This document shows, one piece after another, positions 2 to 8,458 of a DNA stretch of 64,000 nt. Position 1 is the stretch's first letter. Each line of letters opens with the position of its first letter. The notes beneath the pieces were generated by a model. That model was not told where the DNA came from and searched no databases. It saw only the letters and a list, made by a program, of their open reading frames with translations. The stretch is from Anaerosomatales bacterium. GTDB taxonomy: Bacteria > Actinomycetota > Coriobacteriia > Anaerosomatales > Anaerosomataceae. The stretch is taken from assembly GCA_030019445.1 (NCBI GenBank), contig JASEEU010000001.1, forward strand, positions 1-64,000, in the 5' to 3' direction. The position numbers and the translations under genes are program-made.

Positions 2-232
2 GGAGCTCGAGGTCGGAGCAGAGGGCTTCATACACCACTTGACGGGACGTGGCCGGCCGTCGCTGACGCTTTCGACGCCATGACGTCCAGGAGGGCATAT
101 CGTGAAGCGCTTCCACTCCAGGATGCGTTGGACGAGTTGCGCAGGTTCGCCGGGACGCAGTTCGATGAGGTTGCCGTGGAGGCGCTCGTCGCGCGTCTGA
201 CTAGCCCGGGGGCGCGAGATGCAGACTGCTAG
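2..232 (+). CDS. HD-GYP domain protein, C-terminal fragment (5' end outside window)
   Basis: The frame is open from the window edge to a TAG at 230-232. From about nt 59 it encodes the classic tail of an HD-GYP cyclic-di-GMP phosphodiesterase domain: VADAFDAMTS, then RRAYREALPLQDALDELR and AGTQFDEVAVEAL. Residues upstream of VADAFD in this frame do not resemble the family. Another frame just upstream carries IHHLTGRGRP, reminiscent of the HHE.xDG.GYP motif, so there may be a frameshift plus small deletion, or sequence decay. The last 14 nt overlap the next gene, suggesting one transcript. Domain assignment of the tail is fairly sure; whether the whole protein is intact cannot be seen. Confidence 0.6.
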   Translation, partial: GARGRSRGLHTPLDGTWPAVADAFDAMTSRRAYREALPLQDALDELRRFAGTQFDEVAVEALVARLTSPGARDADC

Positions 233-1364
233 CGCGGGGCTGGTCATCCTTTTCGCAGTGGTTCAGGCATCCACCACGCTACCCGAGCTGAGACTCTCGC
301 GCGGACTTGGTGTGAGGCCGGACGCTGCTGCATTGACTGCCGGCGCGTTCATCTTGGAGCCGGCGCCGCTGTGTGTTGCGCTGGCCGCAGGCACGATGTT
401 CTCCGCTGGCGTCTCAGTGCTACTGAAGCGGGACTCCGACCTCAGCGCGAGAGGCCTCGAGTTGATTCGCCGCCTCCCGTTGTGGTGGCTCTCCGGTGCT
501 GCGGGTGGATGGCTCCTGGCCAGATTCCCAATGACGGCCACCACCGTATGGGTTGTCCCGCTCGCTCTAGCTCTCGGGCTCACGTACGTTCTTGTCGACT
601 CATTCACTGCGCCGGTATTCGACACGCGCAGGTCGAGGAGAAGTGGGCGCGCACACGCATCGAGTGTCCTTCGTCCGCTCTTCCCGCTCCTCGCGGGACA
701 GGTGAGTCTCGGTGCAGCGATGGTTGTGCTGTCGCGAGGCGCAGGCATATGGGGCGTCGTGGTGATCGTGCCGATTCTCGCGACAATCCAGTACAGCTTC
801 AATCTTCTTCTGCAGACGAAGTCGACGTACGTGCAGACTATCGAGGCTCTGATGCGTGCCGCGGAGGCCGGCAGTAGTGTACCGGAAGGGCACAGTCGTC
901 GAGTCGCCGAGCTGGCGGTGGATGCAGGGCGCGTCCTGGGACTGTCGTCGCTGCGGCTTGAACGCCTCAATCACGCTGCCCTGGTCCACGAGATTGGCCG
1001 CCTTAGTGCAGATGAGGCGGGGACTGATTACAACCGAATAGCTGCCGACGTCCTCGCAAGAGTTCCCTTCCTTCACGATGCGGTTGAGGTCATCGAGGCC
1101 CAGCGAGCGAGTGAGACCGCATGCGAGGGTGAACCGGGCACGACGTCCGGATCCACAGTGGAGGGCGAGCTCCTCCGAGCGTCCTGCTTGGTTGACTGGG
1201 AACTCTCTCATGCTCCATCCCATCAGTCCGCCCTTGATCCCGCCGCTCTGGCAAGCCAGGCACTCGAGCACATCGCGGTTGAACCAGACGTTCGCGATGC
1301 AGTGGTGCAGGCTGCTTGCGATCCGGGTAGCCGGTGGCTGAGCTTCTGGACGGGGGCACAGTGA
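219..1364 (+). CDS. Membrane protein with degenerate HD-type domain
   Basis: 381 residues. About five hydrophobic segments lie in residues 1-200, followed by a cytoplasmic region from about 205 that resembles an HD/HD-GYP metal phosphohydrolase fold (GHSRRVAELAVDAGRVLG around 224-241, then HAALVHEIGRL around 252-262). The canonical HD pair is His-Glu here (H257-E258) and no GYP motif follows, so phosphodiesterase activity is doubtful; a sensing or binding role is possible. The ATG overlaps the HD-GYP fragment upstream and the stop overlaps the DUF5317 gene downstream, pointing to an operon. Codon use is less GC-biased than in the rest of the window. The exact family is not recognised. Confidence 0.65.
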   Translation: MQTASAGLVILFAVVQASTTLPELRLSRGLGVRPDAAALTAGAFILEPAPLCVALAAGTMFSAGVSVLLKRDSDLSARGLELIRRLPLWWLSGAAGGWLLARFPMTATTVWVVPLALALGLTYVLVDSFTAPVFDTRRSRRSGRAHASSVLRPLFPLLAGQVSLGAAMVVLSRGAGIWGVVVIVPILATIQYSFNLLLQTKSTYVQTIEALMRAAEAGSSVPEGHSRRVAELAVDAGRVLGLSSLRLERLNHAALVHEIGRLSADEAGTDYNRIAADVLARVPFLHDAVEVIEAQRASETACEGEPGTTSGSTVEGELLRASCLVDWELSHAPSHQSALDPAALASQALEHIAVEPDVRDAVVQAACDPGSRWLSFWTGAQ

Positions 1365-1918
1365 TTCTACTGGTGGGTCCGCTCGTGGGTTGCCTGATAG
1401 GGGTGCTCGTCGGAGGATCCTTCTCTGGTCTTGCGGACGTGCATCTGCGGCATGAGGGCTTGCTTCTCATCCTCATTGGCGTCTACCTTCTTCTGCCAAT
1501 GGCATCGGATCTTGTAGCCCTTCCCAGTTCCGTCACACGAGCGCTCTGGTTCGCGTCACTTGGCCTGGCGTGCGTTGCAGCGGCGACGAACATTGGTACT
1601 CCGGGGTTCAGCATGGTCTGGGCCGGGATCCTTCTCAACTTTGTGGTCATTGCCGCGAATGGGGGTATGCCGGTGAGTATCTCCACGACGATTGCGGCAT
1701 CGGGTCTCACCGCTGACGCTGTGGAGAGTCTGGTTCATCTTGACCCGTATCGACTCGCCATGACCGAGACAACGTGGCTCGGCTTTCTCGGTGACATCGT
1801 GCCCCTGCCGTTGCCGAGCCCGTTCGGTGCCGTGCTGAGTGTCGGCGACCTGCTGCTGTCATTCGGGGCGGGGCTCTTTGTGGCCTCTTCCATGGTTCGG
1901 AATGCTCGTGACCGATAA
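1361..1918 (+). CDS. DUF5317 family integral membrane protein
   Basis: 185 residues from the GTG at 1361. This start forms a GTGA overlap with the upstream stop and has a G-rich ribosome-binding stretch before it; an in-frame GTG at 1334 is the alternative. The protein is almost wholly hydrophobic with about five membrane spans. It contains the signatures I associate with DUF5317: NGGMPVS in the middle, then LGDIVPLPLPSPFGAVLSVG and a C-terminal SVGDLLLSFG helix. Function is unknown. DUF5317 genes often sit beside HD or HD-GYP signalling genes, as here. Translational coupling to the HD-like membrane protein suggests they act together. Confidence 0.75.
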   Translation: MILLVGPLVGCLIGVLVGGSFSGLADVHLRHEGLLLILIGVYLLLPMASDLVALPSSVTRALWFASLGLACVAAATNIGTPGFSMVWAGILLNFVVIAANGGMPVSISTTIAASGLTADAVESLVHLDPYRLAMTETTWLGFLGDIVPLPLPSPFGAVLSVGDLLLSFGAGLFVASSMVRNARDR

Positions 1919-2054: not shown

Positions 2055-5000
2055 GTGAAGTCGTCACGAGCGAGCACATCAACGCGCAAAGGGGTATGGT
2101 GGGGCATTCCTGACTATGGCCAATCCGTGTGGAGGCGGCGCCTCAACGCTTCATTCGAAGCATCGCGCCCGCACCTCGTGGTCCTCGTTGGCCCGGGAGG
2201 CTACGGCAAGTCGGTTCTCACGAGTCAGTTCATATCGAACGCACGTCCAGCAGTGTGCGTGTGGCACGATGCTGGCAGGCGGCCATTTCGCCTCGACGAA
2301 CTCCTGTACACCATCACTGCTGCGAGCGGGCAGGAGCATTCGATCTCGGAGCATCTCGCGCACATGAACGAGCGCGATATCCGTGCCGAGATCGAGGAGG
2401 TGCTCGGCCGCTGGAAGGGCCGCGAGATTATCATCGTCGCTGATGGCATATCGGAGGTTGTGGATACCGAACCACTGGAGTGGCTGGCGGGGCAGACTCG
2501 CAGACTCGGTGGCGGCAGCAGCGGCGTCTTGGCGACCACTCGAATACTGAACGCCGAAGGTCTTGGGGCATCGCACGACTCATGGATTATCGAGCCCGAG
2601 GATCTAAGGCTGGACAGAAGCGAGGCAGGCGCACTTGCCGAACTCCTGGCGGGATCGCCTCAGTCAGATCGTGCTGTTGAGAAGGCGCTCGGCGCATCGG
2701 GTGGCCATGTAGCGCTGTTCTGTCTCGTGGCTCGGCATGTGGAGTCTGGTCCGGTTTCAGAGCAGAATCGGCATGCGATTCTGCCGAGAGACGTGAAGGG
2801 CTACTTGCAGAGGAGCGCTGCTGCGCTCGATTTCGAGGAGATGCAGACACTTCTCGTCGCCGCCGTACTGGGTGCGGACACACTCGCGGCGCTCAACAGC
2901 ATTCTGGGCAGAGGTGCACAGTCCAGCTTGCGAGCCGTCTCTCACGCCGTTCCGCTCGTGTCGTATGGCGGTGGCAAGCATGATCTCCGTTTCCGTTCCC
3001 ACGACTTGGCGAGCGATGTGTTCTCGACGCCGGACTTCGCGCATCAGGTCCCCGACGGCGCCAGGCTTGTGAAGTCAGCCCTAGCCCGCCTGAGATTGCG
3101 CGAGGACTACGCCCGCTTGATTGAGCAGGTTCGTCGTCACGGCGATGACCATGACTTGGCGCAGACGCTCGGAGAGCTCGGTGATGTACTGCTGTGCCGC
3201 GCCCAGGGCGAGGTCCTCCGGGCAGCCCTGGAGGAAGTCCCGCCTGCGCTCCTGATGGAGAACCCCCATCTTCTCCTGCTTCGCGCCACCGTCCTTCGGA
3301 CAGGCGGCGAACATGAGGTCGCAATCGATAGCGCGAGGACGGCGTTGCGACTTGCAGAGCACGAGGAGGACAGGCCCCTGATGCTCGAGTGTCGGTTGCT
3401 GTTGGCTGAGACCTACGTTGACACGTGGGAGCCGGCCAAGGCGCTTGACGCACTCCATCGCATGCAGGTCGAACTAGCATCCACTCCCAACGAGGGTGCT
3501 GAGTGCCTCCTCGGCACGTACCTTGCGATGTGCAATCTGTATACCGGCGATGTTGTTGCAGCAATCGACTACGCACGCACTGCCGTTGAGCGAGCCAGGT
3601 CGGCATCCGTTCCGCGAGCCACGCAGCTTCGGGTCAACTACGGGTGCGGGTTCGTTCTCGCCAACACGTGCGGCGATATGGCGCTGGCGGCCGATCTGCT
3701 TAGCGCTGTAGTCTCACACCCGACCTCGTCGGCCAGCCTTCGTGTGAGGGCTCAGGCCAACCTTGGCTATGCTCGCGCGATGATGGGTCGCCTGGATGAG
3801 GCCCACGAGATGCTCGAGGAAGTAGTTGAGCGAATAGGCGGCAGCTGCATGGCCATGTACCTGAGCGCCGCGACGGCGTCGCTCGCTGCGGTCGTGGCAG
3901 TAGAAGACCCCAATGAGGGTCTCGGATTGCTGCAGGAGTCGAACACGGTGGCAGCTGAGATCGGTGACGAGGTCTCGTACAGCCTTGGGCTGATTGAGAT
4001 ATCGACCGTGCTTCGCTTCTTGGGCAGGGGGTATGAAGCCCTGGCTGCGGCTGAGCGTGCCTACCGACACTTCATGATGGAAGGTGTAACGGCGCCAGCT
4101 TGGCGGCTGCAGGCAGGGGCAGAGCGAGCTGCGGCGCGTTTGAGTCTCGGCGAAACACTGGCAGCGACTGATGATGCGCTGGCAGTCCGCCAAGAGGCTT
4201 CATCATGCGGCCTTAAGATGGTCGCCTCTCTGGCGGATATGGTGCTCGCGGAAGTCGAACGCCGGGGTGGCCACATCGCCGACGCCGTTGTGCGTCTGTC
4301 CGCGCACGAAGACTTCATCCGCAGCGAGAGCGCCAACTGGCGATGGGCCATGTACATCCGCGCGTTCCCCGGGCTCCTCGGCGTGCTCGCTGCCGCCATC
4401 GGCGCCGACCGGCTCCCGTCGCACCTGCTGCGCATGGTCACGCGTCCCTATGCCGATGAGGCGCTCCTCATGGCGCGGGAGGTTCTCGATCCCGCTGCGT
4501 GGGACGTGCTTGCCGAGAGGACCGTCGGTACCCAGGCCGCGGCCGCGATCGTGGCGGAGACCGCCGCCCGACCCGGTGTGCGCGTCGGCCTGTTCGGCGG
4601 CCTCACCGTCGAGACGCCGGACGGGCCGGTCTCGGACCGCGCGTGGAAGAAGCGCAAGGCTCGCCTGCTGTTCGCGATGCTCGTCTCGCGACAAGGACAC
4701 GACATCCCGCGCGAGCAGCTGATGGAGCACCTGTGGCCGGACATGGACGAGCAGCGCGCCAAGAGCAACTTCTACGTCATCTGGAGCGCGATGCGCCGTG
4801 CGCTCGGCGCCGGCACGCCCGCGGCGGACTGCGTCGAGCATGTCGCGGGCGTCTGCCGCGTCGTGCCTGGCCTGGTTCGTTCCGACCTCGACGATTTCGA
4901 CGAGGTGAATCTCCAACTGCAGCGTGCCGAGAAGAACGACGACCACGCCGAGGCGGTGCAGGCAGCGCACGCGCTGTGCATGTCGTATCGGGCCGAGGTG

Positions 5001-5339
5001 CTGCCGTCCGAGCTCTACGACGACTGGTTCCGGCCGGTGCGCGAACGCTACCGGGCCGAGTTCGGCGACGCCATGCTTCGTGCTGCCCGTGTCTGTCGTG
5101 CCCACGGCGACTACGAGCAGGCGCTCAAACTGATTCGGGAGGGCCTCGACCGGGACCCGTGGCGCGAGGATCTGTACCAGGCTGCGTTGCGGGCGCAGAT
5201 CGACGCGGGCCAACGCTCGGGCGCGGTGGAGACCTTCATGACGTGCCGGGCCAAACTCTCCGAGGATCTCGGCCTGGACCCGAGTGCTGAGACACGCCGC
5301 CTCTACGACGAGGTGCTCGCGATGGAAGAGCGGTCGTAG
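2055..5339 (+). CDS. STAND NTPase-TPR-SARP transcriptional regulator
   Basis: 1094 residues from the GTG at 2055, which has a strong AGGGGGAGG site 4 nt before it; an in-frame ATG at 2004 has no ribosome site. Order: P-loop NTPase with Walker A GPGGYGKS at about 46-53, TPR-like helical repeats from roughly 330 to 800, an OmpR-type winged helix at about 840-925 and a BTAD domain to the C-terminus (typical SARP tail). Proteins of this build activate transcription, probably after NTP- and ligand-driven switching; target and ligand are unknown. Odd: up to about nt 4240 the codons include many A/T-ending ones, after which third positions are almost all G/C, so the gene looks like a mosaic of a foreign front and a host-like DNA-binding end. 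Confidence 0.88.
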   Translation: MKSSRASTSTRKGVWWGIPDYGQSVWRRRLNASFEASRPHLVVLVGPGGYGKSVLTSQFISNARPAVCVWHDAGRRPFRLDELLYTITAASGQEHSISEHLAHMNERDIRAEIEEVLGRWKGREIIIVADGISEVVDTEPLEWLAGQTRRLGGGSSGVLATTRILNAEGLGASHDSWIIEPEDLRLDRSEAGALAELLAGSPQSDRAVEKALGASGGHVALFCLVARHVESGPVSEQNRHAILPRDVKGYLQRSAAALDFEEMQTLLVAAVLGADTLAALNSILGRGAQSSLRAVSHAVPLVSYGGGKHDLRFRSHDLASDVFSTPDFAHQVPDGARLVKSALARLRLREDYARLIEQVRRHGDDHDLAQTLGELGDVLLCRAQGEVLRAALEEVPPALLMENPHLLLLRATVLRTGGEHEVAIDSARTALRLAEHEEDRPLMLECRLLLAETYVDTWEPAKALDALHRMQVELASTPNEGAECLLGTYLAMCNLYTGDVVAAIDYARTAVERARSASVPRATQLRVNYGCGFVLANTCGDMALAADLLSAVVSHPTSSASLRVRAQANLGYARAMMGRLDEAHEMLEEVVERIGGSCMAMYLSAATASLAAVVAVEDPNEGLGLLQESNTVAAEIGDEVSYSLGLIEISTVLRFLGRGYEALAAAERAYRHFMMEGVTAPAWRLQAGAERAAARLSLGETLAATDDALAVRQEASSCGLKMVASLADMVLAEVERRGGHIADAVVRLSAHEDFIRSESANWRWAMYIRAFPGLLGVLAAAIGADRLPSHLLRMVTRPYADEALLMAREVLDPAAWDVLAERTVGTQAAAAIVAETAARPGVRVGLFGGLTVETPDGPVSDRAWKKRKARLLFAMLVSRQGHDIPREQLMEHLWPDMDEQRAKSNFYVIWSAMRRALGAGTPAADCVEHVAGVCRVVPGLVRSDLDDFDEVNLQLQRAEKNDDHAEAVQAAHALCMSYRAEVLPSELYDDWFRPVRERYRAEFGDAMLRAARVCRAHGDYEQALKLIREGLDRDPWREDLYQAALRAQIDAGQRSGAVETFMTCRAKLSEDLGLDPSAETRRLYDEVLAMEERS

Positions 5340-5590: not shown

Positions 5591-5639
5591 GGTGGCCTTA
5601 CGCTGCCCGTGACGAGGCGGTTTCAGGCACGCCCTGTGC

Positions 5640-5645
5640 TAGAAT
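5640..5645 (+). promoter_or_regulatory. -10 box of secA
   Basis: TAGAAT lies 50 nt before the secA ATG, giving a leader of about 45 nt. No clear -35 at 16-18 nt. Confidence 0.4.
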
Positions 5646-5695
5646 CGGCTGTGCTCTCGGCACCCTTGTCGACCAGTTCGGAGACTACGGATCCC

Positions 5696-8458
<2,763 letters not shown>

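Follow-up and report, generated by a model that had tools for sequence, protein, structure and literature searches.

Exchange of a sensor block beside a conserved DNA-binding half at a STAND–SARP regulator locus of Anaerosomatales

The window analysed here, a stretch of 64,000 nucleotides (nt) from an Anaerosomatales bacterium (assembly GCA_030019445.1, contig JASEEU010000001.1, positions 1 to 64,000), carries near its left end the gene of a large SARP-type regulator. The gene is one unbroken open reading frame (ORF) of 1111 codons on the forward strand; the start at position 2055 assumed earlier is an internal GTG in the same frame. Codon composition changes abruptly inside this gene. Comparison with related genomes shows that in these relatives the sensor half of the regulator has demonstrably been exchanged between lineages and the DNA-binding half inherited vertically.

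The regulator is conserved and syntenic in the order Anaerosomatales, a group of little-studied bacteria of soil and subsurface. It was found in 33 of the 41 genomes of the first search (the window genome included) and in 56 of 69 Anaerosomatales genomes, with one copy in nearly every relative; class-level matches beyond the order span mostly residues ~850–1109. In the relatives the locus has the order amino-acid ABC transporter, HPF, E (a 218-amino-acid protein), B, A, DUF5317, regulator, secA, prfB. Genes B and A occur in 39 of the 39 loci examined and DUF5317 in 38, the remaining one (G019) having been recovered by another scan. In one clade (groups g8 and g3 and genome G010; L061-L064, L069, L078) the DUF5317 gene has moved from the upstream side of the regulator to its downstream side. 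Loci L071, L072, L076 and L077 gave no match to the window's PHP-domain gene, which is flanked by prfB and yitT. The window starts at a contig end (G000:C11:1-64000, G000 being the window genome), so sequence further left is not visible; its truncated first gene resembles the C-terminal consensus of B (AMTSxRxYR...AGxQLD), and B directly precedes A in the relatives.

Table 1. Features of the regulator locus, in positions of the window
Feature	Position	Strand	Basis
Gene B, 3' tail (membrane HD-GYP protein), cut by contig start	2..232	+	open frame to TAG 230-232
Gene A, predicted ECF S-component-like membrane domain (1-177) and degenerate HD-GYP domain	219..1364	+	AlphaFold2 (AF2) model, predicted local distance difference test score (pLDDT) 88.5
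Gene D, DUF5317 membrane protein, within the block of low third-position GC content (GC3)	1334..1918	+	Pfam PF17248, E 2.8e-24
STAND-TPR-winged helix-BTAD (SARP-type) regulator, 1111 amino acids	2004..5339	+	Pfam, profiles, AF2 model
Exchangeable sensor half, ~residues 1-734, NOD and TPR superhelix	2004..4205	+	conservation step, island edges
Boundary zone	4206..4350	+	GC3 changepoint codon 764 (734-782), exchange edges 734-738 (group g8) and 775 (group g6)
Fixed half: rest of adapter, winged helix, BTAD	4351..5339	+	Pfam, model, vertical history of C-half quartet
secA, conserved right flank	5609..8458	+	Pfam SecA domains, synteny in relatives

Pfam recognises TPRs in the regulator, a BTAD domain above the cut-off (E = 9.1e-18) and Trans_reg_C (residues 884–950) below it (22.0 versus 26.2 bits). 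Profile comparison with solved structures matched the MalT NOD (8bob, E = 8.7e-30), the TPR-like domain of MalT (1hz4) and, over profile positions 860–1081, the SARP domain of AfsR (8k60, E = 4.5e-13). The AF2 model (pLDDT 86.6) consists of the NOD, a TPR superhelix reaching to residue ~735, a helical adapter (738–854), a winged helix (~859–960) and BTAD (961–1105). Residues G66, G68 and K69 are invariant, in line with a P-loop in the NOD. With an OmpR-type winged helix followed by BTAD, the protein is by domain content a SARP-type regulator, and the combination of a P-loop NOD with a superhelical sensor marks it as a MalT-like STAND ATPase. Mean pairwise identity among orthologues is 0.24 to the left of residue 741 and 0.48 to its right.

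Genes B and A are homologous along their length (hhalign E = 1e-43). The motif HHExxDGxGYP is present in B of 31 of the 39 relatives' proteins under a strict pattern, the window holding only the tail of B. None of 40 A proteins contains a GYP motif and 14 of the 40 contain HDIG, where the window's A reads HEIG; judged by these motifs, A is HD-GYP-like and not a canonical HD-GYP enzyme. The A model aligns with the HD-GYP protein DvhD with a VIA-align Z of 16.6. Its membrane domain aligns with S-components (RibU, BioY, FolT, ThiT) at Z 10.6–12.2, the top scores being RibU 12.2, the biotin S-component 4dve 12.1 and FolT 11.9, and this is a likeness of fold only, as Z ~12 is within the range of helical bundles and below the ~13 advised for them. 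Foldseek E-values gave no confident match for the membrane domain, and the S-component likeness rests on VIA-align. No gene for a signal (peptide) is obvious in the block, because A and D overlap and the gap between D and the regulator is only 85 nt; this leaves very small or overlapping ORFs out of account. In the collection of papers searched, none mentions DUF5317, and a query for HD-GYP together with S-component returned a single review, in which the latter term is absent.

GC3 rises within the regulator gene from 0.687 to 0.868, with the maximum-likelihood changepoint at codon 764 (nt 4296) and a 2-unit support of codons 734–782. The log-likelihood gain of this step is 22.3, compared with 10.9 for the best of 1000 shuffles. 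An earlier note on this DNA had placed a compositional break within one intact gene, near nt 4240–4250 and residue ~730, ahead of the winged helix and BTAD. The scan bears this out: the profile is sharply stepped instead of flat, the proposed place agrees within the support, and both domains lie to the right of the break. GC3 is 0.675 and 0.662 in the two genes left of the regulator and 0.908 in SecA on the right. Genes of the sampled genome (the window and 28 stretches) have a median GC3 of 0.887, and values under 0.70 occur in 3 of 340 called genes, which is a lower bound because the simple caller lost both left-hand genes, at 219 and 1334. By changepoint gain the regulator ranks 9th among 203 called genes of at least 300 codons; the eight genes above it break within their first 40–302 codons and look like wrong starts or frames, the simple home-made callers having missed or misframed some genes.

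The two halves of the regulator often differ in their closest relatives. The nearest relative by the N-terminal half (SARP-N) is also the nearest by the C-terminal half (SARP-C) in only 14 of 38 genomes. The trees of the N and C halves were built without G036, a fragment. Genomes G007 and G015 share an amino-acid identity of 0.93 in SARP-C, 0.89 in DUF5317, 0.96 in SecA and 0.98 in prfB, as against 0.46 in B, 0.26 in A and 0.39 in SARP-N. In their nucleotide sequences the divergent part forms an island of 4866 nt, which begins 42 nt before the start of B and ends at residue 734 of the window's regulator, with an identity of 0.87 before the island, 0.50 within it and 0.84 after it. Among 114 genes with a match in 140 kb of these two genomes, none is less conserved than A and B. 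Synonymous codon identity at identical residues follows the same course, its excess for the pair being −0.03 in A, 0.12 in SARP-N, 0.27 in SARP-C and 0.38 in SecA.

Tree topology conflicts as well. By every flank G007 is more distant from G023 than from G015, yet in B (0.76), A (0.53) and SARP-N (0.58) G007/G023 is the closer pair. When G007 and G015 are set against G023 and G010 as the species split of a quartet, B, A and SARP-N all reject it (p-value of the approximately unbiased (AU) test, pAU, < 1e-4 in every run) and pair G007 with G023 and G015 with G010. This cassette split is in turn rejected by SARP-C (pAU 0.003), DUF5317 (0.03), prfB (0.008) and the ABC permease (0.004). GlnQ also rejects it (pAU 0.02) without picking between the remaining two, and HPF and E favour the species split but do not reject the cassette one.

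A scan of 17 genome pairs found a full island in 10, with the left edge between −78 and +6 nt from the start of B and the right edge at residues 679–738. An exchange edge at 734–738 coincides with the turn between helices 718–735 and 738–754 in the AF2 model. In G005/G014 the island has its left edge inside B and its right edge at residue 775; G007/G023 and three pairs of group g4 have no full island. In G001/G011 and G067/G068 (L076/L077, L092/L093) a divergent island covers only the first ~530–600 nt of B, its membrane domain. B and SARP-N conflict with each other in group g3, which means that pieces also move separately. The exchanged unit is larger than the sensor half and comprises B, A, DUF5317 in most lineages, and SARP-N. 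The locus shares two marks with exchangeable pherotype or allotype loci (comQXPA, ComRS, agr): a variable sensor part stands beside a conserved output part of one gene, and the history of the block, in relatives and for gene A also in the window genome, is unlike that of its flanks. The earlier idea, in which a sensor half of foreign origin was fused to a host-like DNA-binding half, is thus retained in part, in that the sensor half is exchanged in relatives, but alleles are what is exchanged, the block is larger, and a paralogue as the source is not supported. Two candidate lines of evidence were dropped on comparison with SecA: a cluster of contig breaks at SARP residues 673–808 as a sign of strain polymorphism, as SecA breaks often too, and the partial correlation of A with SARP-N given SARP-C (0.68), as SecA gives 0.61.

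The search returned no genome of the same genus as the window genome. Its SARP-C is closest to G014 (0.62) and then to G005, and SARP-C and prfB both place it with these two; prfB favours the G005/G014-type grouping in 4 of 4 runnable quartets, with the alternative rejected in three. Gene A of the window has a foreign affinity. It is closest to G015 and G010 (0.32), a seven-taxon AU test places it with G010/G015 (pAU 0.996) and rejects it as sister to the A of the species relatives G005/G014 (0.004), and the G005/G014-type grouping was rejected every time in five quartets (0.002–0.035). These tests indicate that the window genome has exchanged its gene A. The identity of its SARP-N is flat, at ~0.26–0.27 to many lineages, and the seven-taxon test of DUF5317 singled out no grouping. 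Separate phylogenies of the two halves, proposed earlier as a check, conflict among G007, G015, G023 and G010 but give the window's own N-half no clear closest relative. This N-half may have been replaced too.

The low GC3 left of the edge had been taken as a sign of a foreign source, and this interpretation is not supported. SARP-C has a higher GC3 than SARP-N in 39 of 40 orthologues, and the GC3 of SARP-N follows that of host housekeeping genes (rho = 0.74, n = 35), so that low GC3 is no donor fingerprint; foreign donor composition was accordingly discarded as its cause. Over the whole set of orthologues the ensemble changepoints lie at residue 735 for GC3 and 741 for conservation. Twenty of the 40 orthologues have a GC3 changepoint with a gain above 7, and 16 of those 20 are located at residues 640–800. 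In groups g3 and g8 the step keeps to each lineage's own exchange edge. In g3 the steps of G002 (687) and G012 (684) compare with exchange edges at 679–706, that of G017 being at 723; steps at 714–760 in g8 compare with edges at 734–738, and those of G007 (727) and G023 (740) with 734–736. Outside the block, DUF5317 surpasses A and B in GC3 (7 genomes of one clade, +0.06 to +0.23), but inside it does not (32 genomes, mean +0.01). In two hand-picked groups of 12 genomes each, the GC3 of SARP-C exceeds that of SARP-N by a mean of 0.13 (exchange clades) and 0.05 (vertical-like genomes). Within the halves, site conservation has odds ratios of 1.06 (N) and 1.12 (C) for GC3, and the odds ratio of C versus N remains 1.59 after stratification for residue and conservation, so the cause is regional. 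Low GC3 is probably a standing trait of the exchange region, due to weak codon selection on short-lived alleles, and the GC3 step would mark the edge of that region.

We consider it likely that this is a modular signalling locus, in which a hypervariable block, running from the start of B to where the TPR superhelix of the regulator ends, is swapped and the DNA-binding half is kept. Several observations weigh against this view. SARP-N looks vertical in G001/G011 (N 0.89, C 0.89) and in G067/G068 (N 0.80, C 0.86). The alleles are very diverged, and overwhelming support comes from one quartet only, the others being mixed. Some exchanged genomes have weak or displaced GC3 steps (G005 at 655, G055 at 810, G044 at 580, and G014 with a log-likelihood ratio of 5). 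GC3 correlates with conservation generally (rho = 0.63 over 114 genes), and the step alone therefore proves no exchange. In the window genome the seven-taxon test places SARP-N best with G005/G014 (pAU 0.73), rejects G010/G015 (0.04) and does not exclude G003/G013; with SARP-N preferring G005/G014 and A preferring G010/G015, the two are without one common resolved source.

Some of these points would also fit an explanation that we regard as unlikely, namely that nothing was exchanged and that the left half and the upstream genes just evolve fast under weak constraint, relaxed codon selection lowering their GC3. Conservation and GC3 step together, the two are correlated across genes, SARP-C exceeds SARP-N in nearly all orthologues, and the vertical-looking pairs exist. 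However, rate cannot reverse a topology, and B, A and SARP-N contradict the flanks by grouping G007 with G023 and G015 with G010. Synonymous identity drops as well, the island edges are abrupt, and site conservation barely predicts GC3, with the contrast between the halves surviving stratification. The topology reversal and the loss of synonymous identity in G007, G015, G023 and G010 rule out fast evolution as the sole cause, and it may contribute to the low GC3.

Recombination within one genome between paralogues with a common 3' end, by which the earlier note would join a foreign sensor half to a host-like DNA-binding half, is very improbable. A tandem second copy in G066, 53% identical in the N-half, means that donors within a genome can exist, but the search of the window genome returned one match, nearly every relative has one as well, and the island takes in two upstream genes; the single-copy state of the gene leaves this origin unsupported. 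Least probable of all is an assembly chimera, given that, although many loci come from metagenome-assembled genomes (MAGs), in which binning or mis-joining of strains could create apparent mosaics, and several contigs end at SARP residues ~673–808, genomes assembled independently of one another have the same edges, long contigs hold the island with continuous flanks (G002, a single contig of 1.84 Mb; G012, 1.13 Mb; G007, 0.49 Mb), and frequent breaks in SecA make contig ends count neither way.

Additional copies were seen in a few relatives. The tandem copy of G066 (G066:C30, L104:13177-15450) lies right behind the full-length one, has the same N-terminal start and is cut by the contig end. 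The same MAG holds a second B-A-DUF5317-regulator cassette (G066:C12, L189), with masked runs and an N-half nearest to G009 (45%), which either is contamination or was acquired horizontally. Paralogues made of an N-half alone, as a stock of spare donors, were rejected: the matches in G060:C146 and G066:C30 stop at the ends of contigs, and a transposase ORF breaks up the one in G041. This transposase-like ORF (G041:C143, L186:458-1453), of IS3 type by eye, is inserted near residue 700, in the sensor half of the regulator.

How such a modular locus could work is suggested by its domains. B and A would be membrane receptors with HD-GYP-type cytoplasmic domains, degenerate in A; they are likely upstream receptors because they are exchanged together with the N-half, and they would signal to the STAND half. 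The STAND/TPR half would read the state of B and A, and the winged-helix/BTAD half would switch on target promoters; by analogy with AfsR, the N-half may hold the output off until the signal arrives. Homologous recombination, anchored in the conserved flanks on the hpf/E side and in the adapter, the DNA-binding half and secA on the other, would be the route by which the block is replaced by alleles of other lineages, usually B, A and SARP-N jointly and sometimes B, A or N alone. Such an exchange would rewire sensing by altering what is sensed, with the DNA-binding half staying in place, and the conservation of that half suggests that the regulon is fixed. More tentatively, receptors that combine an ECF S-component-like fold with HD-GYP and are matched to a STAND-TPR sensor could make this an allotype locus through which populations swap specificity for a small molecule, not a peptide, onto a conserved DNA-binding module. 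Two points become testable here: which regions of a STAND regulator have to fit the receptors, and whether the DNA-binding half is kept constant because the regulon must stay. An intragenic GC3 step suggests itself as a cheap marker for exchange regions of this kind.

The notion that regulators evolve by swapping sensors onto a fixed output is common. To our knowledge, clear natural cases are mostly peptide pherotype systems of Firmicutes; ComR, which belongs to the closest precedent, is not a STAND protein. A literature search on sensor swapping in hypervariable regulators gave almost nothing, and in the accessible part of the description of Anaerosomatales no mention of SARP, c-di-GMP or quorum sensing was found.

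In architecture the regulator resembles MalT (8bob, 1hz4), with an N-terminal NOD, a TPR-type superhelix and a C-terminal DNA-binding domain, but MalT ends in a LuxR-type helix-turn-helix and this regulator in a winged helix and BTAD. The predicted fold of the membrane domain of A is like that of ECF S-components; unlike them, A is fused to a degenerate HD-GYP domain. AfsR, a large SARP, joins winged helix and BTAD to NOD and TPR, and its NOD and TPR inhibit the SARP domain, according to the available sections of the AfsR paper, which contain no mention of sensor-half exchange (PMC10936776). Its order is SARP-NOD-TPR, whereas the regulator studied here has the reverse order, NOD-TPR-SARP, as in MalT.

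Two pherotype loci are closer in their pattern of variation. In Bacillus comQXPA, as described in the portion of the source available, variable upstream genes and a variable N-terminal sensor part of ComP stand beside a conserved cytoplasmic part (PMC4008528). That system consists of a histidine kinase and response regulator with a modified peptide, while the present locus, in another phylum, has a STAND–SARP regulator with HD-GYP-type receptors and, unlike comQXPA, is exchanged both among species of one genus and across genera. The closest precedent is ComR/ComS of Streptococcus suis, where, in the accessible part of the report, the DNA-binding domain is identical among strains with all variation in the sensing half, and allelic replacement carries specificity across with a conserved target box (PMC4072589). 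The likeness lies in the fixed DNA-binding part and the variable sensing half. ComR is paired with the peptide gene comS, whereas here no signal gene is recognised and two membrane HD-GYP-type proteins are exchanged. In the present locus the swapping can be traced across an actinobacterial order: a defined recombination edge lies within a single gene, two receptors are exchanged along with the sensor half, and the flanks are left untouched.

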